Shown here: positions 1-40,752 of the stretch, one piece after another
Layout: the number at the start of each line of letters is the position of its first letter
Position numbering within the stretch: position 1 is the stretch's first letter
Assembly: GCA_025057675.1 (NCBI GenBank)
Contig: JANWVE010000002.1
Location: 2,457 to 44,825 of the forward strand
DNA from: Bacteroidia bacterium
GTDB taxonomy: Bacteria > Bacteroidota > Bacteroidia > JANWVE01
Reading direction: 5' to 3'
Length of the DNA stretch: 42,369 bases
Notes under the pieces: generated by a model
Told to the model about the DNA's origin: nothing
Database searches by the model: none
What the model saw: only the letters and a program-made list of their open reading frames with translations
Made by a program: the position numbers and the translations under genes

Positions 1-623
1 TTTTTTTGGGCGTGTCCCTCGCTGCGCTTCGGGTCGGCGTGCTACGGGCTGACGGTGCTGCGCCCCACCCGCCCACCCCCTGGTTATGGGGTTAAGAGCG
101 TGGGCGAGGGGCTTCGCACCAAGCCTGACGGCTTGCCCTTCGCATGCCTCACGCACGCTGCAAGTATACTAATCCCACTTATACAAAATGTAATCTTGTC
201 AGTACTTGAAAATGAATACTAAACAAGGTAAAACTTAATTTTAACCTTGTAACTTATTGAAAACGAATCTAAAACAAAGTAAAACATCTGTATTTCAGGG
301 TTAAGGTTCGTGTAAAGTCCATGTATTCAAGATTTAACCTTATAAGTGTTTGAAAATGAAAATGGAGTAAGATGAAGTCAGTATATTGAAAACAAGGTAA
401 AAATTTTTAACATTTTAAGTATTTGATAATCAATGTAAAACAAGGTAAAGCAAACCCATGTATAAAAACAAGGTAAAGCATTCAGAAGCTGCTGCGTGAG
501 GCATGCGGAGGGTGCGTCAGCAGTGCGTAGCGAAGCGTAGCACCGAAGCGTCAGCGTAGCCCGAAGCACGCCGACCTTGTGGGCATACGCGCAGCGTAAC
601 GCCCACAAGGACACGCCCAAAAA
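1..623 (+). repeat. Composite intergenic element, copy 1 (B end - core - A end)
   Basis: ORF-free composite element that fills the region before the M20 gene and may begin to the left of the window. The left GC-rich end (1-160) is type B, with a C-rich tract and the hairpin CAAGCC-TGAC-GGCTTG at 120-135. The AT-rich core (about 161-490) holds tandem dyads and the central motif AAGTCCATGTATTCAAG in forward orientation. The right end (495-623) has type A inner sequence (TGC-GTCA-GCA hairpin at 513-522) joined to a B-type tip with the CTTGTGGGC/GCCCACAAG stem. It finishes with ACACGCCC and an A tract 19 nt before the M20 stop codon. Open frames seen here are products of the repeat, not genes. 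Confidence 0.93.
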
Positions 624-641
624 CTAACTACTCTTCAAAAA

Positions 642-2018: not shown

Positions 2019-2086
2019 GACTTAAAACTATGAAATAGAATTGATATAACAAAAGCAGGATTTTTTACAGATTAAGTTTTTTGATA

Positions 2087-2704
2087 TTTTGGGCGTGTCC
2101 CTTCGCTGCGCTCGGGTCGGCGTGCTGCGGGCTGCGCTATCGCTTCGGTGCTTCGCTGCGCTCCGCACTGCTGACGCACCCTCCGCATGCCTCACGCACG
2201 CTGCTTTTAGATGTTTTACCTCATTTTTATACATGCGCATACTTTACCCTGTTTAATCTTGATTATCAACTGCTTACAAGGTTAAGATTTTTTACTTTGT
2301 TTTAACTACGTTTGTTTTATCTTGTTTTGTATTGATTTTCAAGTAGGCACAAGGTTAAATCTTGAATACATAGACTTTATATACGCCCCTTCAACGTTGA
2401 TTAAATTTACTTTGTTTTGCACTCATTTTCAGATTTTTGCAAGGTTAAAATATATTTTAACCTTGTTTGCCATTTATTTTCAAGTACTTACAAGATAAAG
2501 TTTTGTATAAGTGGGATTAGTCTGCATGCCGCTTGCGTGAGGCATGCGGAGGGCGTGCGGTAGCACGGTGCGAAGCCCACTCGCACACGCTCTTAACCCC
2601 ATAACCAGGGGTTGGGCGGGTGGGGCGCAGCACCGTTAGCCCGTAGCACGCCGACCTTGCCCACACGAGCGCAGCGAGCCGTGGGCAAGGACACGCCCAA
2701 AAAA
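2087..2704 (-). repeat. Composite intergenic element, copy 2 (A end - core - B end)
   Basis: Full-length copy with the core in reverse orientation (central motif CTTGAATACATAGACTTTAT). The left end is type A (2087-2205). The right end is type B (about 2525-2704), with the inner hairpin CGTGC-GGTA-GCACG at 2554-2567 and the tip stem CTTGCCCAC/GTGGGCAAG at 2656-2664/2681-2689. This tip stem differs from that of copy 1 on both strands of the hairpin. It lies between the M20 start and the phosphopantetheinyl transferase stop codon. No gene is seen inside it. Confidence 0.95.
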
Positions 2705-2735
2705 GAGAATTAGAATTTATCAAAAGTATTAATTA

Positions 2736-3410: not shown

Positions 3411-3454
3411 TTCAATATTTACGGATTTATGAAGACACATTTTAATCATTTGTC

Positions 3455-4010
3455 TTTTTGGGCGTGTCCCTCGCTGCGCTCGGGTCGGCGTGCTACGGGC
3501 TACGCTATCGCTGCGGTGCTTCGCTGCGCTCCGCACTGCTGACGCACCCTCCGCATGCCTCACGCAGCAGCTATTAAACTAAATCCACCTATTCAAATCT
3601 TAACTCTGTAAGTGTCTGAAAATCAAAACTAAACAAAGTAAAATTTAATTTTAACCTTGTAAAGCCTTGAAAATCAATTCAAAATAAGGTAAAGCTGGCA
3701 GATTCAGGGTTAAAGGGTTATCAAAAGTCCATGCATTCAAGGTTTAACATTGTACATGTTTGAAAATCAATACAAAACAAGATAAAACAAACACGGTTCA
3801 AAAAAGGTAAAAAATTTTAATCTTGCAACTGCTTGATAATCAAACTTAAACAAGGTAAAGCAAACGCGTGTATGCAAACAAGGTAAAGTATCAAAACGCA
3901 GCTTGCGTGAGGGATACGGAGCATGCCGTCAGGCAGTGCGAAGCACCGAAGCGAACGCGTAGTGCGCAGTAGCCCGACCCGAAGCGCAGCGAAGGGACAC
4001 GCCCAAAAAA
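3455..4010 (+). repeat. Composite intergenic element, copy 3 (A end - core - C end)
   Basis: Full copy with a forward core (AAAGTCCATGCATTCAAGG). The left end is type A. The right end is type C (about 3900-4010). Type C reads GAGGGATACGGAGCATGCC instead of GAGGCATGCGGAGGG and carries the hairpin TGCC-GTCA-GGCA at 3924-3935. C-type ends resemble intergenic GGGCGT...GGTCGGGCT...CCCTCACGC repeats that I recall from other Bacteroidota; this is memory and was not searched. It lies between the PPTase start and the K+ channel stop. Confidence 0.95.
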
Positions 4011-4067
4011 TAAAAAATCAAAACTGTGTTTTAGCTAATTTAACACATTCAAAGCCATCGCAAAGAG

Positions 4068-5127: not shown

Positions 5128-6165
5128 TTAGCTTAAAGCCAACCCGCATAGTTTGAACAGTATTCTTGCGCCTACTATACTATCCCATTCATTTTTTGAA
5201 GGGACTACCTCATTGAGGTCAAAGCCTATAATTTGTTTATTTGCTTCTTTGAGTCTTTTGAACAGAAAGACTACTTGTTCAAAGTCAAGTCCGCCGGGTA
5301 CTGGTGTTCCAGTGTTTGGACATAATCCTGGGTTGAGACCATCAATATCAAAGCTGATATAGACTTTTTCAGGTAGATACGAAATAATTTCATCGCAGTA
5401 TTGGAGCCATGTTTTACCTTGATACAATCCGTTTTTGATATCTTCATCAAAAAAAGTGTGTACGCGAGCATGTTCTTGAATAATGTTCATCTCCTCTTGG
5501 CAAAAATCTCTAATACCTACTTGAACTAGAAGGCTCACGCTTGGTATCATCAATGCGTTGTACATAATTGAGGCGTGCGAATAAGTAAAACTTTCGTAAG
5601 CTTTGCGCAGGTCCGCGTGGGCGTCTATCTGCAAAATAGCGAAATTTTGATGTATTTTACTCAAAGCACGGATAAATCCGAGTGGTGTGCTGTGATCGCC
5701 CCCTACTAAACCGACCCTTTTACCTTGTTTGAGTAGTTGTAAGGTTTCTCTTTCAACCCATTCATGAAGTTGCTCGCATGTTTGGTTAATTTCTTGTAGA
5801 ATTTTTTCATATCTGCTGCCTGTTTTGATGGATTTACCTTTTGCCAAGTGTTTAATAACACTTTCGCATTTTTTACGAGTTTCTTGATTGATTTTTTGCC
5901 ACTCTTGGGTGGCGGGACGCAGATATATTCCTTTTTTCCAAAAATCTCCAAAGGTTCTATCTAACAGGTCTACTTGAAAAGAGGCTTCAAAAATGGCTTC
6001 AGGGGCTTTGTGCGTACCAGAACGATAAGAAACTGTGGCATCCCAAGGTACAGGTACAAGGATTAAATCAGATTGCGACTCATTAAAGGGTAAGCCAAAA
6101 ATTTGAGCACCTTCAGTAGCCAGATGGTTGGGATTAAAACCTGCAATAATCTCTTCCTTCGTCAT
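5128..6165 (-). CDS. Agmatinase/arginase-family ureohydrolase
   Basis: Di-manganese ureohydrolase. All six metal ligands can be seen: GGDHS (His158), DAHADLR (Asp181, His183, Asp185) and SFDIDGLNP (Asp273, Asp275). A conserved acid follows near EVVPSKNEWD. The 345-residue protein has an N-terminal extension and an inserted helical segment (about 85-145) seen in the Bacteroidota 'agmatinase family protein' group. The substrate could be agmatine, arginine or formiminoglutamate, and the sequence alone does not decide between them. No hut or other polyamine genes are adjacent. A -7 box (TATTTTTG) lies 5 nt before the ATG. The K+ channel gene follows after 19 nt, so the two likely form one transcript. 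Confidence 0.88.
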   Translation of the reverse strand: MTKEEIIAGFNPNHLATEGAQIFGLPFNESQSDLILVPVPWDATVSYRSGTHKAPEAIFEASFQVDLLDRTFGDFWKKGIYLRPATQEWQKINQETRKKCESVIKHLAKGKSIKTGSRYEKILQEINQTCEQLHEWVERETLQLLKQGKRVGLVGGDHSTPLGFIRALSKIHQNFAILQIDAHADLRKAYESFTYSHASIMYNALMIPSVSLLVQVGIRDFCQEEMNIIQEHARVHTFFDEDIKNGLYQGKTWLQYCDEIISYLPEKVYISFDIDGLNPGLCPNTGTPVPGGLDFEQVVFLFKRLKEANKQIIGFDLNEVVPSKNEWDSIVGARILFKLCGLALS

Positions 6166-6170
6166 TAGTG

Positions 6171-6178
6171 CAAAAATA
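6171..6178 (-). promoter_or_regulatory. -7 promoter box (TATTTTTG) of the agmatinase-K+ channel unit
   Basis: Minus-strand TATTTTTG fits TAnnTTTG and ends 5 nt before the start codon, consistent with a leaderless transcript. No convincing -33 element was found. Confidence 0.45.
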
Positions 6179-6270
6179 GGAATTATTTGCTTTTTCAGTA
6201 TGATGTATAAACGTATGAGTTTGAACGTATTTTACAAAAACTGTACGGAAGATGTAATGTAAATTTATAT

Positions 6271-6864
6271 TGGCGTGTCCCTCGCTGCGCTCGGGTCGGC
6301 GTGCTGCGGGCTGCGCTATCGCTTCGGTGCTTCGCACTGCTTACGCACCCTCCGCATGCCTCACGCATCAGCCTTTTGACGTTTTACCTTGTTTTTAGCC
6401 ATATCTTTACTTTATTTGATATTGACTATCAAACACTTACAAGATTAAAATTTTTTACTTTGTTTCAAATGTTGTTACTTTACCTTGTTTTGATTTTCAA
6501 TTATTTACAAGGTTAAACCTTAAATACATGGACTTTACAGAGCGTTTTAACCTTGGATACGCAATTTTTACCTTATTTTGAATTGATTTTCAAATGTTTA
6601 CAAGGTAAAAATATATTTTGACCTTGTTTAATGTTCATTTTCAGATACTTACAAGATTAAGCTTTGAATAAGTGGGATTAGTGTACTTACCGCTTGCGTG
6701 AGGCATGCGGAGGGCAAGCCGTCAGGCTTGGTGCGAAGCCCCTCGCACACGCCCTTAACCCCATAACCAGGGGGTGGGCGGGTGGGGCGTAGCACCGTTA
6801 GCCCGTAGCACGCCGACCTTGTGGCATACGCGCAGCGTAACGCCACAAGGACACGCCCAAAAAA
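6271..6864 (-). repeat. Composite intergenic element, copy 4 (A end - core - B end)
   Basis: Full copy with a reverse core (CTTAAATACATGGACTTTACA). The left A end begins TGGCGTGTCC, one G short of the usual tip. The B-type right end has the hairpin CAAGCC-GTCA-GGCTTG and a tip stem shortened to CTTGTGGC/GCCACAAG (6828-6835/6842-6849). One base pair is missing on both sides compared with the CTTGTGGGC form. It lies between the agmatinase start and the ispE stop. Confidence 0.95.
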
Positions 6865-6920
6865 TTAACCCTTAACCCTTTGAGTATCGCTGTTTGCTTA
6901 AATAGCTTAGGTTCGTCAGT

Positions 6921-11228: not shown

Positions 11229-11518
11229 ACAAGAGAAGTCCGTATATTTAAGGTCTAACCTTGTACATGCTTGAAAATGAATACAAAACAAGATAAAACG
11301 AGCGTAATTAAAACAGGATAAAAAATTTTAACCTTGTAAGTATTTGATAATCAAGATTAAATAAGATAAAGCAAAGATATGTACAAAAACAGGGTAAAAC
11401 ATGCAAACGCAGCTTGCGTGAGGCATGCGGAGGGTGCGTCAGCAGTGCGAAGCACCGAAGCGATAGCGCAGCCCGCAGCACGCCGACCCGAGCGCAGCGA
11501 AGGGACACGCCCAAAAAA
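11229..11518 (+). repeat. Half copy of the composite element (copy 6: half core - A end)
   Basis: Only the right half is present. The sequence begins at the central motif (AAGTCCGTATATTTAAGG), continues through the last two dyads of the core, and ends with a complete A end: hairpin TGC-GTCA-GCA, then the GACCCGAGCGCAGCGAAGGG tip and GACACGCCC. The left GC-rich end and the first two dyads are absent. The break coincides with the middle of the core. It is 28 nt from the Smr gene stop. Confidence 0.9.
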
Positions 11519-11546
11519 TTAAAATAAAAATCTAAGCTTATCATCT

Positions 11547-12164: not shown

Positions 12165-12354
12165 AAGAATATCTCCACTACAATACACTACCCCATATTT
12201 GAAATCTGCACTTTGATTATTTTCAATGAGAAGTAAAGCATTTTTGGCAACACAAGTAAAGAATGCCCACAGAATACTCTTTTATCTAATAAATTGACTT
12301 TTAGCTGTTTACTTCATGCGATACAAGGATGTGTATGTACTTATATGAGGATTC

Positions 12355-12964
12355 TTTGGGCGTGTCCTTGTGGGCGTTATGCTGCGCATATAGCCCACAA
12401 GGTCGGCGTGCTACGGGCTAACGGTGCTACGCCCCCACCCGCCCACCCCCTGGGCAAGAGTGAAAGCGTGAGCGAGGGGCTTCGCACCAAGCCTGACGGC
12501 TTGCCCTCCGCATGCCTCACGCAAGCTGCCAATAAACTAAGTCTATTTATTCAAAACTTAACCTTGTAAGTATCTGAAAATGAACTATAAACAAGATAAA
12601 ATTCAATTTTAACCTTGTAAATCATTGAAAATCAATATAAAACAAGGTAAAACTTGCGTATTCAAAGTTAAAGGTTTATCAAAAGTCCATGTATTCAAGG
12701 TTTAACCTTGTACACGCTTGATAATCAATACAAAACAAGATAAAGTAAGCGCACTTGAAACAAGGTAAAAAATTTCGACCTTACAAGTGTTTGATAATGA
12801 ACATCAAACAAGGTAAAGCAAGGATATGTATAAAAACAAGGTAAAACGTCCAAAGGCAGCTTGCGTGAGGCATGCGGAGGGTGCGTCAGCAGTGCGAAGC
12901 ACCGAAGCGATAGCGCAGCCCGCAGCACGCCGACCCGAGCGCAGCGAGGGACACGCCCAAAAAA
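12355..12964 (+). repeat. Composite intergenic element, copy 7 (B end - core - A end)
   Basis: The clearest forward-oriented full copy. The B end carries the tip stem CTTGTGGGC/GCCCACAAG (12367-12375/12393-12401). The core has four dyads, at about 12558-12601, 12607-12652, 12701-12745 and 12773-12818, with the central motif AAAGTCCATGTATTCAAGG at 12682-12700. The A end finishes GAGGGACACGCCC and an A tract. The 200 nt between the Smr start and the element hold no gene that I can see, only a weak, decayed dyad near 12212-12240. Confidence 0.96.
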
Positions 12965-13033
12965 TAAAATCTATATCGCAAATCAGATATCAAAATTGCT
13001 TGATAGAATAAGCAGGCTTACAACAAACTACAT

Positions 13034-14793: not shown

Positions 14794-15348
14794 TTTTTTT
14801 GGGCGTGTCCCTCGCTGCGCTCGGGTCGGCGTGCTGCGGGCTTCGCTATCGCTTCGGTGCTACGCTTGCGCTACGCACTGCTGACGCACCCTCCGCATGC
14901 CTCACGCAGCAACCTTGGGATGTTTTACCTTCTTTTTAGACATATCGTTGTTTTATCTTGTTTAAGATTGATTATCAAATACTTACAAGGTTAAAATTTT
15001 TTACCTTGCTTGATTTGAATTCGTTTTATCTTGTTTTGTATTGCTTTTCAACCATGTACAAGGTTAAACCTTGAATACATGGAATTTACAAAATAGTTTA
15101 ACTTTGAATACACAAACTTTACCTTACTTTAATTTGATTTTCAACGTTTTACAGGGTTAAAATATGTTTTAACTTTGTTTAGTGTTCATTTTCATGTACT
15201 TACGAGGTTAGATTTTGTATAAGTGGGCTTAGCATACTTGCTGTATGCGTGAGGCATGCGAAGGGCGTGCGGTAGCACGGTGCGCAGCACCGAAGCGCAG
15301 CGCAGCCCGTAGCACGCCGACCCGAGCGCAGCGAGGGGCACGCCCAAA
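14794..15348 (-). repeat. Composite intergenic element, copy 8 (A end - core - hybrid B/A end)
   Basis: Full copy with a reverse core (CTTGAATACATGGAATTTACA). The right end is a chimera. Its inner part is the B-type hairpin CGTGC-GGTA-GCACG, but the long G-rich arm of type B is missing. The outer part (CCGACCCGAGCGCAGCGAGGGG) is the A-type tip. It ends 27 nt before the lon stop codon. Confidence 0.95.
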
Positions 15349-15375
15349 GAAATAAAATATCATTTAGATACACAC

Positions 15376-18466: not shown

Positions 18467-18497
18467 AGTATATTATTGTGTTTTTTGTATTAAAAGA

Positions 18498-19103
18498 TTT
18501 TTTGGGCGTGTCCTTGCCTGCGTTTCGCTGCGCTCATGCAGGCAAGGTCGGCGTGCTATGGGCTAACGGTGCTGCGCCCCACCCGCCCACCCCCTGGGTA
18601 AGAGCAAAAGTGTATGCGGGGGCTTCGCACCAAGCCTCACGGCTTGCCCTCCGCATGCCTCACGCAAGCAGCACGCAGACTAACTCCACTTACATAAACT
18701 TTTACCTTGTAAATAACTGAAAACAAACACAAAACAAGGTAAAAGTACATTTTAACCTTGTAAACATTTGAAAATGACTGAAAAACAAGGTAAAGATTAT
18801 TTAATCAAGGTTAAAAAATCTTGTAAAGTCCATATATTCAAGGTTTAGTCTTGTACATCCTTGAAAATCAATACAAAACAAGGTAAAATGAACGCGATTC
18901 AGCAAAGGTAAAAAAATTTAATTTTGTAAATAGTTGATAATCAACCTTAAACAAGGTAAAGCAAAGATATGTATAAAAACAAGGTAAAACATCCAAATAC
19001 TGTGTGCGTGAGGCATGCGGAGGGTGCGTAAGCAGTGCGCAGCACCGAAGCGATAGCGCAGCCCGCAGCACGCCGACCCGAGCATTAGCGAGGGACACGC
19101 CCA
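18498..19103 (+). repeat. Composite intergenic element, copy 9 (B end - core - A end)
   Basis: Full copy with a forward core (AAAGTCCATATATTCAAGG). The B-end tip stem is the variant CTTGCCTGC/GCAGGCAAG (18513-18521/18538-18546), and the inner hairpin is CAAGCC-TCAC-GGCTTG. The A end has TGC-GTAA-GCA and a tip changed by a small substitution (GAGCATTAGCGAGGG). It lies between the divergently placed tRNA-Arg and the nicotinamidase-like gene. Confidence 0.95.
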
Positions 19104-19172
19104 TATTAATTTTATTATTTATTATCAATCATCTAATATTGCTATCTTAAAACCTTTTTCTATATTCGTGGC

Positions 19173-19964: not shown

Positions 19965-19971
19965 TATTTTA

Positions 19972-20524
19972 TTTTTTTGGGCGTGTCCTTGTGGGCGTTA
20001 TGCTGCGCGTATGCCCACAAGGTCGGCGTGCTACGGGCTAACGGTGCTGCGCCCCACCCGCCCACCCCCTGGTCAAGAGTAAAAGCGTGGGCGAGGGGCT
20101 TCGCACTGCTCACGCACCCTCCGCATGCCTCACGCAAGGACCTTTGCAGATTAGCGGAGTCTATTTATTCAAAGATTTACTTTGCAAGTACCTCAAGATG
20201 AATACTAAACGAGGTAAAAATATACTTTTTACTTTGTAATTCATGGAAAAATCAATTCAAAATAAGGTAAAGTTTGCCTATTCAGTATGAAAAGGTTATC
20301 AAAAGTTGATATATTCAAGGTTTAACCTTGTAAGTACGTAATAATGAGCATCAAGTAAGGTAAAGCAAGAGTATGTATAAAAATAAGATAAAACATTGAA
20401 AAGCTGCTTGCGTGAGGGATACGGAGCATGCCGTTAGGCAGTGCGAAGCGCAGCGTAGCACCGAAGCGATAGCGTGGTGCGCAGTAGCCCGACCCGAAGC
20501 GCAGCGAGGGACACGCCCAAAAAA
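19972..20524 (+). repeat. Composite intergenic element, copy 10 (B end - short core - C end)
   Basis: Forward copy with a shortened core: one dyad after the central motif AAAGTTGATATATTCAAGG is missing. The left B end has tip stem CTTGTGGGC/GCCCACAAG and the inner hairpin TGC-TCAC-GCA rather than the usual B hairpin, so inner parts of the ends have been exchanged. The right C end has TGCC-GTTA-GGCA. It begins 7 nt after the stop of the preceding gene. Confidence 0.94.
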
Positions 20525-20579
20525 TTATTAAAAGTAAAATAAACTTAATACATAATTACAGTACAAAAAAAGAAAAAAG

Positions 20580-22331: not shown

Positions 22332-22367
22332 AATGTCATAAAAACCAAGTCTAAAAAATAATTTTAC

Positions 22368-22980
22368 TTTTTGGGCGTGTCCCTCGCTGATGCTCGGGTC
22401 GGGCTACTCCGCACTACGCTGACGCTTCGGTGCTACGCTATTGCTTCGCACTGCCTAACGGCATGCTCCGTATCCCTCACGCAGCAGCGTTTTGATGTTT
22501 TACTTTGTTTCTAAATATATCTTTGCTTTACCTTGTTTAAGGTTGATTATCAACTATTTACAAAATTAATTTTTTTACCTTTACTGAATCGCTGCTATTT
22601 TACTTTGTTTTACATTGATTTTCAAGGATGTGCAAGACTAAACCTTGAATATATGGACTTTACAAGATTTTTTAACCTTGATTAAATAATCTTTACCTTG
22701 TTTTTCAGTCATTTTCAAATGTTTACAAGGTTAAAATGTACTTTTACCTTGTTTTGTGTTTGTTTTCAGGTATTTACAAGGTAAAAGTTTATGTAAGTGG
22801 AGTTAGTCTGCGTGCTGCTTGCGTGAGGCATGCGGAGGGCAAGCCGTGAGGCTTGGTGCGAAGCCCCCGCATACGCTTTTACTCTTGCCCAGGGGGTAGG
22901 GCGCAGCACCGTTAGCCCGTAGCACGCCGACCTTGCTTGCATGAGCGCAGCGAAACGCAAGCAAGGACACGCCCAAAAAA
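22368..22980 (-). repeat. Composite intergenic element, copy 11 (C end - core - B end)
   Basis: Full copy with a reverse core (CTTGAATATATGGACTTTACA). The left end is type C (inner hairpin TGCC-TAAC-GGCA, followed by TATCCCTCACGCA). The right end is type B with tip stem CTTGCTTGC/GCAAGCAAG (22932-22940/22957-22965), a fifth version of the paired stem. The 22 nt just outside the left tip (AGTCTAAAAAATAATTTTAC) are shared with copy 14. Confidence 0.95.
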
Positions 22981-23077
22981 ATAAACTTAAAGTCTATCAA
23001 ATCCTTTATAGTTGTATTGTTGCATGTAATTTAAGCAATTTTATCAATTTTTGACATCTCAACGATGTAAATTGAAA

Positions 23078-25020: not shown

Positions 25021-25233
25021 ATGAGTTTTGGACACTAAAAGAATTTTTAAAAAGTCATAAGGTATTTAAGATATATCAGGGGACGTGGAGGATCAACCAT
25101 GGATTGGTTTTATAGGCTAAAACGATTTTTGGTTGCCAACTTTATGGGTACAAAAGTACAGTTTTTTTGTCTCTACCTTTGTTTCTACCAAAGACAACTT
25201 AAAGAATGTTATTCATATTGTCAATGGAAGTTA
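25021..25233 (+). pseudogene. Decayed IS982-family transposase fragment
   Basis: A short stretch between the M61 gene and repeat copy 12. One frame reads LKSHKVFK (about 25039-25070). After a frameshift the next reads GRGGSTMDWFYRLKRFLV, and a third gives TKDNLKNVIHIVNG up to 25232. From memory this order resembles the RIKSHKVFKG...RGKTSTGWFYGFKLHLV block of IS982 DDE transposases. At least two frameshifts and loss of both ends make it non-functional. It stops exactly where the composite element begins and does not continue on the other side. The 93 nt before it (24928-25020) show nothing recognisable. Confidence 0.45.
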
Positions 25234-25823
25234 TTTTTTTGGGCGTGTCCCTCGCTGCGCTCGGGTCGGCGTGCTACGGGCTGCGCTATCGCTTCGGTGC
25301 TGCGCTTGCGCTCCGCACTGCTGACGCACCCTCCGCATGCCTCACGCAGCAGTCTTCTGACGTTTTACCTTGTTTTTAGACATATCTTTGCTTTACCTTG
25401 TTTGATATTGATTATCAAATACTTACAAGGATAAAATTTTTTACCTTGTTTGAAGCGCTGTTATTTTACTTTATTTCTTATTCATTTTCAAGCATTTGTA
25501 AGGTTAAACCTTGAATACATGTACTATACAACCCTTTAACCCTGAATAAATAACTTTTATCTTGTTTCGCGTTCATTTTGAGTGAGTTGAGAAGTTAAGT
25601 TTTATTTTTACTTTGTTTATCATTGATTATCAAATACTTGCAAGGTTGCGTCTTCAATAAATGAGGTTAGCATACTTGCTGCTCGCGTGAGGCATGCGGA
25701 GGGCGTGCGGTAGCACGGTGCGAAGCCTCTCGCCCACTCTTTTACTCCTGACCAGGGGGTGGGGCGAAGCACCGTTAGCCCGCAGCACGCCGACCCGAGC
25801 GCAGCGAGGGACACGCCCAAAAA
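25234..25823 (-). repeat. Composite intergenic element, copy 12 (A end - core - B/A hybrid end)
   Basis: Full copy with a reverse core (CTTGAATACATGTACTATACA). The left end is type A. The right end has the B-type inner arm (hairpin CGTGC-GGTA-GCACG and a G-rich stretch) but an A-type tip (CCGACCCGAGCGCAGCGAGGG). It lies directly against the IS982-like remnant on the left and 59 nt from the glycosyltransferase stop on the right. Confidence 0.95.
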
Positions 25824-25882
25824 TTTTACTTATCAAATTATTTACTAAAATAGCCCATCTTTGCTAAAAATACAGCCACTTT

Positions 25883-28507: not shown

Positions 28508-28571
28508 AGATAAAACTCCTACTGTTAAGCTGCCAAGCTAGTTTTGATAAATTTTTAATAAGTGAAGTAAA

Positions 28572-29177
28572 TTTTTGGGGCGTGTCCCTTCGCTGCGCTT
28601 TGGGTCGGCGTGCTACGGGCTGCGCTTTCGCTTCGGTGCTTCGCTGCGCTGCGCACTGCTGACGCACCCTCCGCATGCCTCACGCAGCAGCTTTGGGATG
28701 TTTTACCTTGTTCCTATATATACATTTGCTTTACCCTGTTTAATGCTCATTATCAAATACTTAAAAAGTTAAAATTTTCTACCCTGTTTGATATACCCTC
28801 ATTTTATATTGTTTTGAGCTCATTTTCAAGTATGTACAAGGTTAAACTCCGAATATATGGACTTTTCATACCCTTTTAACCTTGAATACGCAAATTTTAC
28901 CTTGTTTTCAATTGATATTGAGGTATGTACAAGGTAAAAAATTTGCTTTTACCTTGTTTAGTATTCATTTTCAGGTACTTACAAGGTTAAAGTTTGAGTA
29001 GGTGGACTTAGTTAGACAGCTGCTTGCGTGAGGCATGCGGAGGGCAAGCCGTGAGGCTTGGTGCGAAGCCCCTCGCCCACGCTCAAACCCTTGCCCAGGG
29101 GGTGGGGCGCAGCACCGAAGCGAAGCGCAGCCCGCAGCACGCCGACCCGAGCGCAGCGAGGGACACGCCCAAAAAAA
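28572..29177 (-). repeat. Composite intergenic element, copy 13 (A end - core - B/A hybrid end)
   Basis: Full copy with a reverse core (CCGAATATATGGACTTTTCA). The left end is type A. The right end combines the B inner hairpin CAAGCC-GTGA-GGCTTG and its G-rich arm with an A-type tip. It lies between the cysS start and the dnaK terminator. Confidence 0.95.
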
Positions 29178-32729: not shown

Positions 32730-33041
32730 ATATGTATTTATGTGTTTTTTGTTGTATGCTTTTCAAGAGTAACGGCAATATTATGTATTTTGTTTCAAAA
32801 CCAAAAAAATAAGGTACAACTATTAAGACAACTGAAGTTTTTCATTAAAATACAGCACAAATCATCTTGACAATATGTTTGACATTTTATTTAGTATGAA
32901 TGATATCTGTGGGTATAATGGTGTGAATATCGGGGCGCAAAATGGTCTTCGGGTTGTTGAGAGATATATTTTAATAAATGAGCATAATTGAAAATACGCC
33001 TGGTACAAAGTTTTTATATTAAGTCTAAAAAATAATTTTAC
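32730..33041 (+). other. Gene-poor spacer with one unexplained 38-codon frame
   Basis: No supported gene. A plus-strand frame of 38 codons (32875-32991, MFDILFSMNDICGYNG...) begins after a TATGTTTG-like sequence, but nothing identifies it. It could be the tail of a lost gene. The last 27 nt (about 33015-33041) are the left half of the extended inverted repeat around copy 14. Confidence 0.35.
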
Positions 33042-33609
33042 TTTTTTGGGCGTGTCCCTTCGCTGCGCTTCGGGTCGGCGTGCTGCGGGCTGCGCTATCG
33101 CTTCGGTGCTGCGCTTCGCTCCGCACTGCTGACGCACCCTCCGCATGCCTCACGCAAGAACCTTGGCAGGTCTGCAAGCGCTATTTATTCAAAGTTCTAC
33201 TCTTTAAGTATCTGAAAATGAATACTAAATAAGGTAAAATACATTTTAACCTTGTAAATCACCGAAGAATTCAAAATAAAACAAAATCTCAACATTCAGG
33301 GCTAAATGGGTGTAAAAAGTTCATACATTCGAGTTTTAACATTCTCTAAGTAATTGAAAATGAATACTAAACAAGGTAAAACGTCATAATTAAAACAAAG
33401 TAAAAAAATTTAACCTTGTAAGTATTTGATAATAAACATCAAACAAGGTAAAACAAATGTATGCATACAAACCAAGTAAAACATCCAAACGCAGCTTGCG
33501 TGAGGGATACGGAGCATGCCGTTAGGCAGTGCGAAGCGTGAGCGTAGCACCGAGCGTTAGCGTAGTGCGCCGTAGCCCGACCCGAAGCGCAGCGAAGGGA
33601 CACGCCCAG
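33042..33609 (+). repeat. Composite intergenic element, copy 14 (A end - core - C end) with extended inverted repeat
   Basis: Forward copy with a degenerate core (AAAAGTTCATACATTCGAG). The left end is type A and the right end type C (TGCC-GTTA-GGCA). The inverted repeat continues outside the usual tips: the left flank AAGTCTAAAAAATAATTTTA (from 33020) matches the reverse complement of the right flank (33610-33640) over about 27 nt. The remaining 210 nt before the crotonase gene hold one decayed dyad (about 33658-33700) and no gene. Confidence 0.95.
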
Positions 33610-33848
33610 AAAGGTAAAATTATTTTTTAGGCCTAATATAACAGAACATACAATTTTAGTTTATATTGATTTTCAATGTTTTAAAGGATAGAAAATCAGC
33701 TTACCTTTTTGTAAATTGTTGATATCAATAATGCTCTTGGGCGTTTAGTTCGTTGTGTTCGTATGTAAAAAAACGTACCAGAGAAGTACTAAAATAAAAA
33801 AATAATTCATTTTTGGCATTTTGAAGAAAAATATTTTGATTTGCAGGT

Positions 33849-34616: not shown

Positions 34617-34698
34617 TTTTTTAATAGAATAACTTTTTTGAGAAGTGTGAAGATATAGGTATGAATGATATACATAAAGAATTAGTGATTTTTTGTAG

Positions 34699-35263
34699 TT
34701 TTTGGGCGTGCCCTTGCCCACGTCTTGCTTACGCTCGTGTGGGCAAGGTCGGCGTGCTACGGGCTAACGGTGCTACGTCCCACCCACCCGCCCCTGGGCA
34801 AGGGTAAAAGCGTGTGCAAGGGGCTTCGCACCGTGCTATCGCACGCCCTTCGCATGCCTCACGCAGCAGCTATCAAACTAAGTCCATCTATTCAAATCTT
34901 AACCTTGTAAATAATTGAAAATCAATTCAAAATAAGGTAAAGCTTGCGAGTCCAGGGTTAAAAGCGTATCAAAAGTCCATGTATTTGAGGTTTAACCTTG
35001 TATATGCTTGAAAGTGAATACAAAACAAGGTAAAATAACAACAATTCAAAGAGGGTAAAAAATTTTAACCTTGTAAGTATTTGATAATCAACACTAAACA
35101 AGGTAAAACAAATGCATGTATAAAAACAAGGTAAAACATCCAAGAGCTGCTGCGTGAGGCATGCGGAGGGTGCGTGAGCAGTGCGGAGCGAAGCGAAGCA
35201 CCGAAGCGTCAGCGCAGCCCGCAGCACGCCGACCCGAGCGCAGCGAAGGGACACGCCCAAAAT
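34699..35263 (+). repeat. Composite intergenic element, copy 15 (B end - shortened core - A end)
   Basis: Forward copy (AAAAGTCCATGTATTTGAGG). The left B end starts GGGCGTGCCC and has tip stem CTTGCCCAC/GTGGGCAAG. The inner hairpin is CGTGC-TATC-GCACG (34832-34845). The first dyad of the core is missing, so the core is about 45 nt shorter. The A end has TGC-GTGA-GCA. It sits between the convergent crotonase and recQ genes, 82 and 26 nt from their stops. Confidence 0.95.
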
Positions 35264-35289
35264 ATCAAATTATATCTTTTAGCATTGAA

Positions 35290-37526: not shown

Positions 37527-37560
37527 AGAATTGTAGTGTAATTGAAGAGTTTGGGTTTTA

Positions 37561-37973
37561 TTTTGGGCGTGTCCCTCGCTGCGCTCGGGTCGGTGCATTC
37601 CGCACTACGCGTACGCTTCGGTGCTGCGCTCACGCTTCGCACTGCCTTACGGCATGCTCTATGCCCCTCACGCATTTAACCCTGGATTTTGAGGTCTTTA
37701 TCTCATTTTATGCATAGTTTTGTTTTATTTTGTTTTTGCGTTATTTGGAGTTTATTTACAAGGTTAAACATAATATAGATAGTTTAAGATACTTGCACAA
37801 TGTTCTTGCGTGAGGCATGCGGAGGGCAAGCCGTCAGGCTTGGTGCGAAGCCCCACGCCCTTGACCCCATAACGAGGGGGTGGGCGGGTGGGGTGCAGCA
37901 CCGTTAGCCCGTAGCACGCCGACCTTGTGGGCATGAGCGCCAGCGAAACGCCCACAAGGACACGCCAAAAAAA
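37561..37973. repeat. Composite element, copy 16, with almost no core (C end - B end)
   Basis: Short copy of about 413 bp. A C end (TGCC-TTAC-GGCA) and a full B end with tip stem CTTGTGGGC/GCCCACAAG (37924-37932/37950-37958) flank only about 130 nt of AT-rich sequence, in which no more than one weak dyad can be seen. The tip on the right has lost one C (ACACGCC). It shows that the two ends can exist with the core nearly deleted. It lies between the thrS stop and the pterin dehydratase start. Confidence 0.92.
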
Positions 37974-38033
37974 TATCTAAAATCTGACCGCCTTCAAAAC
38001 AAGTCTATTTTTGACAAAAACTATGTGCATCAA

Positions 38034-40072: not shown

Positions 40073-40695
40073 TTTTTTTTGGGCGTGTCCCTTGCTGCGC
40101 TTCGGGTCGGCGTGCTGCGGGCTACGCTTCGCTTCGGTGCTTCGCTGCGCTCCGCACTGCTCACGCACCCTCCGCATGCCTCACGCAGCAGCTTTTACAT
40201 ATTTTACCTTGTTTTTATACATACGTTTGCTTTACCTTGTTTAATATTGATTATCAAACAATTACAAAGTTAAATTTCTTTACCTTGTTTGAGAGGTTGT
40301 TGTTTTATCTTGTTTTGTATTCATTTTCAGGTATATACAAGGTTAAACCTTGAATACATAGACTTTTTGCAACCCTTTAACCCTGATTCCCAAAATTTTA
40401 CTTTATTTTGAATTGATTTTCAATGACTTATAAGGTTAAAGCATGTTTTTATCTTGTCTGATGTTGATATTCAGATACTTACAAAGTTAATTTTTAAATA
40501 AGTGGCGTTAGCATACTTGCGGCGTTCTTGCGTGAGGCATGCGGAGGGCGTGCGTTAGCACGGTGCGAAGCCCCTCGCCCACGCTTTTACCCTTGACCAG
40601 GGGGTGGGCGGGTGGGGCGCAGCACCGTTAGCCCGTAGCACGCCGACCTTGTGGGCATACGCGCAGCGTAACGCCCACAAGGACACGCCCAAAAA
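40073..40695 (-). repeat. Composite intergenic element, copy 17 (A end - core - B end)
   Basis: Full copy with a reverse core (CTTGAATACATAGACTTTT). The left A end has TGC-TCAC-GCA. The right B end has the hairpin CGTGC-GTTA-GCACG (40549-40562), an outer stem CGCCCAC/GTGGGCG enclosing CCCTTGACCAGGG, and tip stem CTTGTGGGC/GCCCACAAG. It ends 57 nt before the stop of the WD40 gene. Confidence 0.96.
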
Positions 40696-40752
40696 GATTA
40701 AATAGCGTATATTTTGAACAGAAATTCTGTGGAGTTTGTTTTGCTTTTTATA

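Follow-up and report, generated by a model that had tools for sequence, protein, structure and literature searches.

A dyad-bearing intergenic repeat of a Bacteroidia genome and its relation to arm-flanked rpn-like gene cassettes

What is the array of tandem palindromic modules that occupies an intergenic gap of this Bacteroidia bacterium, and which molecule, if any, recognizes it? The preliminary description of the 42,369-nt stretch of DNA analyzed here (the window) proposed either a protein-binding array, such as a nucleoid-associated or SMC-loading site, or a chain of RNA hairpins. The window lies on contig 222 of a 2.89-Mb draft genome (G000; 336 contigs, 91% complete) and carries ordinary chromosomal genes (lon, dnaK, cysS, thrS, a recQ-like gene and others). 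Copy statistics were drawn from a 754-kb sample (26% of G000), the contigs of which often end in 610-bp repeats and of which the first-round contigs were picked for strong element matches.

Anatomy of the element and its dyads

The dyad array is the core of a non-coding element of about 610 bp, which consists of a left arm (GGGCGTG...CCTCACGC), an A+T-rich core of about 335 bp with four dyads and two lone half-sites, and a right arm (GCGTGAGG...CACGCCC) inverted with respect to the left one (Table 1). The arms are about 95-165 nt long, and in the copy at 12352-12966 their inner 27 nt are 100% complementary. Sixteen copies were recovered in the window as profile clusters, and no long ORF was found in them. 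The terminal hairpin of the arms keeps its pairing while its sequence varies, and the arms are thus unlike the dyads in kind; co-evolution of the two arms as one hairpin was not seen, within-element arm identity being not above between-element identity. Both core-bearing species also have short-core elements, in which there is a single dyad and the right arm is of another kind (GCGTGAGGGGCATGGAGCATGCC); examples are the one in the window, L039:4270-4657 and L010:1648-2022.

Each module has the layout TTTAACCTTGT-N23-ACAAGGTAAA with a start-to-start offset of 34 nt, or, written as a palindrome, [ACCTTGT-N6-TTGA]-N3-[TCAA-N6-ACAAGGT], which is a consensus description and not a contact map. Each dyad half carries two conserved patches about one turn apart, and the half-sites lie about three helical turns apart. 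The four modules and the extra half-sites described previously were found again, the modules within a base or two of their earlier positions and the extra half-sites as two lone ones. The inner gap, put earlier at about 20 nt, does recur and measures 23 nt. In this copy, the centre of module 1 is CTGAAAATGAA and not TTGAWAATSAA, and module 4 has a degenerate left half (TTCGACCTTAC). The non-palindromic motif said to fix the orientation corresponds to AAGTCCATGTATTCAAGG, which is asymmetric and conserved and does fix it. The estimate of about 100 half-sites in the window was close to the 114 counted at ≤1 mismatch (shuffled mean 5.7, maximum 10), about 95 of which fall within elements. Order and spacing recur in other copies as proposed: across the 754-kb sample the offset was 34 nt in 349 of 370 half-site pairs spaced 15-53 nt, and in 349 of the 354 pairs at offsets 33-35. 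Dyads are confined to the elements (613 inside vs 5 outside).

Table 1. Features of the window, with the copy at 12352-12966 given in detail
Feature	Positions	Strand	Basis
Element copy	2..625	+	profile cluster
Element copy	2084..2705	-	profile cluster
Element copy	3453..4012	+	profile cluster
Element copy	6266..6866	-	profile cluster
Truncated copy: modules 3-4 and right arm	11233..11520	+	profile cluster
Whole element copy, T-tract at left end, A-tract at right end	12352..12966	+	profile cluster; sequence
Left arm GGGCGTG...CCTCACGC, with hairpin 12366-12402	12358..12522	+	sequence; class-wide arm family member
A+T-rich core with dyads	12523..12862	+	
Module 1: CTTAACCTTGT ... ACAAGATAAA	12557..12600	+	
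Module 2: TTTAACCTTGT ... TTGAAAATCAA ... ACAAGGTAAA	12608..12651	+	
Conserved asymmetric motif AAGTCCATGTATTCAAGG	12683..12700	+	
Module 3: TTTAACCTTGT ... TTGATAATCAA ... ACAAGATAAA; homologue of the dyad upstream of rpn-like genes elsewhere	12701..12744	+	
Lone right half-site ACAAGGTAAA	12760..12769	+	
Module 4, left half degenerate (TTCGACCTTAC)	12774..12817	+	
Lone right half-site ACAAGGTAAA	12836..12845	+	
Right arm GCGTGAGG...GGACACGCCC, inverted vs left arm	12863..12958	+	
Element copy	14795..15353	-	profile cluster
Element copy	18497..19106	+	profile cluster
Element copy, more diverged	19970..20526	+	profile cluster
Element copy	22366..22983	-	profile cluster
Element copy	25233..25825	-	profile cluster
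Element copy	28570..29177	-	profile cluster
Element copy	33040..33613	+	profile cluster
Element copy	34697..35265	+	profile cluster
Short-core element, one degenerate dyad	37559..37974	-	profile cluster
Element copy	40074..40697	-	profile cluster

Constraint, copy number and distribution

Dyad columns were more conserved than spacer columns (0.903 vs 0.781, p = 1e-12; 0.909 vs 0.782 in the larger set of 141 copies), also when A/T and G/C columns were taken separately, and the core consensuses of G000 and its congener G002, the other core-bearing genome, differed at 3 of 148 dyad columns vs 26 of 191 other columns (p = 1e-4). The tree of 86 copies is star-like, with 84% of its length on terminal branches, and on these branches dyads change half as often as spacers (A/T sites, 3.29 vs 8.59 changes per site); drift of the dyads at the neutral rate, which the preliminary description had set against its own proposal, was not borne out. 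The constraint ratio did not depend on the arrangement of the neighbouring genes (co-directional 0.42, convergent 0.42, divergent 0.44). The ratio of 0.53 (0.43-0.64) for truncated copies says little, since several of these proved to be halves of gene-bearing elements. Singleton counts and the slope of dyad-on-spacer divergence were set aside because of saturation and sampling noise. The covariation check on the dyads gave compensatory changes at expectation, with 52 pair-restoring double changes vs 45.2 expected in the larger set, and with 30 compensatory double changes in the smaller set, where 46.5 is the expectation for double changes of any kind. The constraint, the near-invariant offset of conserved half-sites and centres, the independence from gene orientation and the lack of covariation together argue for the dyads as putative protein-binding sites and not RNA hairpins, in line with the first of the two earlier proposals.

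The sample of G000 holds 283 elements, of which 141 are full length (orientations 73:68), and extrapolates to 1,084 copies in the genome. They cover 15.8% of the sample (14.3% in second-round contigs). To our knowledge, it is very unusual for a non-coding repeat to fill about a seventh of a bacterial chromosome and to occur nearly always singly in an intergenic gap. The copies are intergenic, with one element in 195 gaps and two in 5 gaps; by the simple ORF calls behind these gap statistics, the share of gaps ≥30 bp long that hold an element is 77% between convergent genes, 55% between divergent genes and 54% between co-directional ones. With respect to genes they show no preferred orientation (32:23, p = 0.28), and the median distances are about 40 bp from the upstream stop and 90 bp to the downstream start. 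A promoter box separates the element from the start codon in 50 of 87 cases (6.2 when shuffled), and the elements were rejected as promoters, because these -7 boxes are the genes' own. Within this set of 50 of the 87 gaps, the box (TAnnTTTG) frequently stands precisely 12 nt ahead of the called start, and many transcripts may therefore be leaderless. The form of the box suggests a member of Bacteroidota. No two sampled copies were more than 96.7% identical, and nothing thus indicates that the repeat is still spreading.

In a search of 395 genomes of the class, the core was found in G000 and G002 only, 12 further matches being short and marginal. G001, a member of the same genus, carries arms singly and lacks the core. 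The arm pattern is present in 48 of the 395 genomes (reversed control, zero), with 909 arms in G000, 304 in G002, 47 in G001, 41 in G039 and at most 11 in any other genome. These arms form a REP-like family (GCGTGAGG...CCGACC...CACGCCC) whose internal hairpins vary (e.g. L119-L128), and the copy tested had no Rfam match. Neither core nor element was found in plasmids, phages or viral contigs, and the lone pattern match among genome contigs, on a Desulfurivibrionaceae contig, was nothing like the element and was taken as chance. The order of genes across transcription units has been largely rearranged among G000, G001 and G002, with elements present or not. Adjacencies that carry an element were almost never conserved (0 of 29 in G002 and 3 of 42 in G001), and a role of the elements as rearrangement breakpoints was rejected as not specific, wide element-free gaps being also mostly broken. 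No target-site duplication or precise empty site of a full element was found; there were two single-arm candidates, the flanks of which had diverged. A literature search of partial coverage did not find the repeat family, which may still be described.

Cassettes of rpn-like genes between the arms

Facing arms lie 300-349 nt apart in 119 pairs of the G000 sample, and a search for facing arms at larger distance revealed cassettes that carry rpn-like genes. All six complete readable rpn-like genes of the core-bearing genomes (three in G000 and three in G002) lie between inward-facing arms; within 500 bp this holds for 6 of 6 rpn-like genes and for 10 of 457 other ORFs in G000 and 2 of 341 in G002. 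Dyads flank the gene on both sides in four of the six loci, and in two the upstream flank equals modules 1-3 of the 610-bp element. In these four loci the upstream dyad begins 85-96 nt ahead of the start codon, with the promoter box TAnnTTTG at -12, and a second dyad-like match begins 12-28 nt past the stop; L023 has arms and no dyads, and L114a a downstream dyad only. L154 (rpn-like gene at 5948-6847) and L174 run from the left arm through modules 1-3, the promoter, the ORF and a dyad-like region to the right arm, and L106 (G002) runs from an arm through one dyad, the promoter, the ORF and one dyad to the other arm. The element profile matched L174 with 409.5 bits on the left (arm and modules 1-3) and 159.5 bits on the right (module 4 and right arm), and the flanks of L154 matched likewise. 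Each of the 141 full-length non-coding copies can be matched to the left flanks of the cassettes (median identity 81-82%, best 85-86%); at the level of sequence, the homology of the cassette flanks with all 141 gene-less copies is direct.

The rpn-like ORFs share invariant D58 and E76-x-Q78-K79 and have variable C-terminal repeats. Their assignment to Rpn is weak: the TIGR01784 match was 28.6 bits, below the cut-off of 52.1, and appeared in two of the six members, no convincing Pfam match was found, and solved structures, searched by sequence with an alignment of the rpn-like proteins, yielded no relative of note. The predicted model, of low confidence (pLDDT 66), had weak fold matches including McrBC, EndoMS and MspJI, with Z up to 5.8 and tied with unrelated chains, and Foldseek returned nothing at E 0.001 or better. 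Nine of eleven arm-bearing genomes are without rpn-like genes, so the arms are in general independent of rpn. Two further ORFs were observed in similar surroundings: one with AAA-ATPase_like and PDDEXK_9 domains between two inverted right-arm ends with dyad remains (L178:1750-4550), and an arm-bracketed ORF of 291 aa with a coiled-coil tail, the main domain of which had no convincing family match (L168:13300-15450).

Origin of the repeat and rival explanations

We consider it the best explanation, at a probability of roughly 0.58, that the 610-bp repeat is a high-copy, non-autonomous, MITE- or REPIN-like gene-less relative of the arm-flanked rpn cassette, whose dyads bind Rpn or a regulator of rpn. 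Two arms of the class-wide REP-like family stand inverted around the A+T-rich core, and the same core is found split by the Rpn-like nuclease gene in the cassettes, with dyads a little upstream of the promoter and just past the stop. Loss of the rpn gene from cassettes would have produced the 610-bp repeats, which would then have spread to about a thousand intergenic sites; that the gene-less form derived from the cassette, and not the reverse, is suggested by the simpler G002 cassettes. The dyad would be bound by a protein as a symmetric complex, which may serve in mobilising or controlling the cassette. Least certain are the identity of the binder, where Rpn itself is a guess, and whether binding still acts at gene-less copies. 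The stronger statement, that Rpn-like PD-(D/E)XK nucleases of this lineage mobilise the DNA enclosed by REP-like arms and dyads, with the approximately 1,000 repeats as their MITEs, we consider quite unlikely.

It is doubtful, if conceivable, that an rpn-like gene entered a pre-existing dyad-bearing repeat as a passenger, while another enzyme mobilises the repeat and uses the dyads. Arms do occur in genomes without rpn, other ORFs also lie between arms, and G001 has many rpn-like matches, of which the three readable copies have no arm nearby (all three are near contig edges); but the G002 units have one dyad per side and not a split four-dyad core, and the unit common to both species includes dyads and promoter. 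An array maintained by the host, in which the dyads would be operator- or insulator-like sites of a chromosomal protein (a nucleoid organiser or boundary factor) selected at transcription-unit boundaries, appears unlikely. It would agree with constraint on the long terminal branches, with the absence of recent copies, with one copy per gap, with positions just upstream of promoters and with equal constraint in all gene contexts. However, the terminal branches may hold changes older than insertion and the single copy per gap may reflect limited room, while the genus does not need the element, which is absent from G001, and dyads are not found outside elements. No result points to the nucleoid or SMC-loading role suggested earlier, and the flanking of rpn-like genes points to a putative mobile-cassette origin instead.

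That the element is a true REPIN, moved by a REP-associated tyrosine transposase (RAYT), is very improbable. Two inverted REP-like arms whose terminal hairpins keep pairing would fit it, and RAYT subclass 2.6 of Bacteroidetes is described as having atypical flanking structures that recur at other places in the genome (PMC6006769); yet Y1_Tnp (PF01797) was not found in G000, G001 or G002, where positive controls were found, and none of the 20 loci of Y1 transposases in seven genomes with arms had an arm nearby. One Y1 transposase of G039 (L130:1-300) is preceded by repeats with CTATCCCGTTAGGGATTA that bear no relation to the arms. That the dyads act in transcripts as a chain of RNA hairpins is barely credible: the core folds at -58 and -63 kcal/mol vs -45 when base-shuffled, as any palindromic sequence would, but covariation, an orientation bias and an Rfam match are absent, and copies between convergent genes are equally conserved.

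Like REPINs and BIMEs (PMC3116915), the element has two structured repeats in inverted arrangement and hundreds of intergenic copies, whereas its arms enclose a core with conserved dyads and do not covary within an element, and no RAYT was found. It resembles MITEs as a non-coding, high-copy sequence with inverted ends and a homologous gene-bearing relative, but a conventional transposase is absent, the core itself is constrained and no target duplication was found. The intergenic TAACTGA repeats of marine Beggiatoaceae are likewise abundant motifs of unknown role, but are short direct repeats, for which neither arms nor a nuclease cassette are described (PMC4679880). The cassette genes share with published rpn genes a multi-copy PD-(D/E)XK-like nuclease gene and variable, coiled C-terminal repeats (PMC5350276, PMC10327210).

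An earlier study of E. coli rpn genes left their self-mobility open (PMC5350276), and a later comparison stated that rpn genes, though widespread, lack terminal or flanking inverted repeats and judged a transposase role unlikely (PMC10327210). The arm- and dyad-flanked cassettes bear on this open question: judged by their sequences, they are an exception to the published statement on terminal repeats and not proof of transposition, and their flanks are well defined and assayable. If Rpn-like nucleases do mobilise them, this would be a form of transposition without a conventional transposase.
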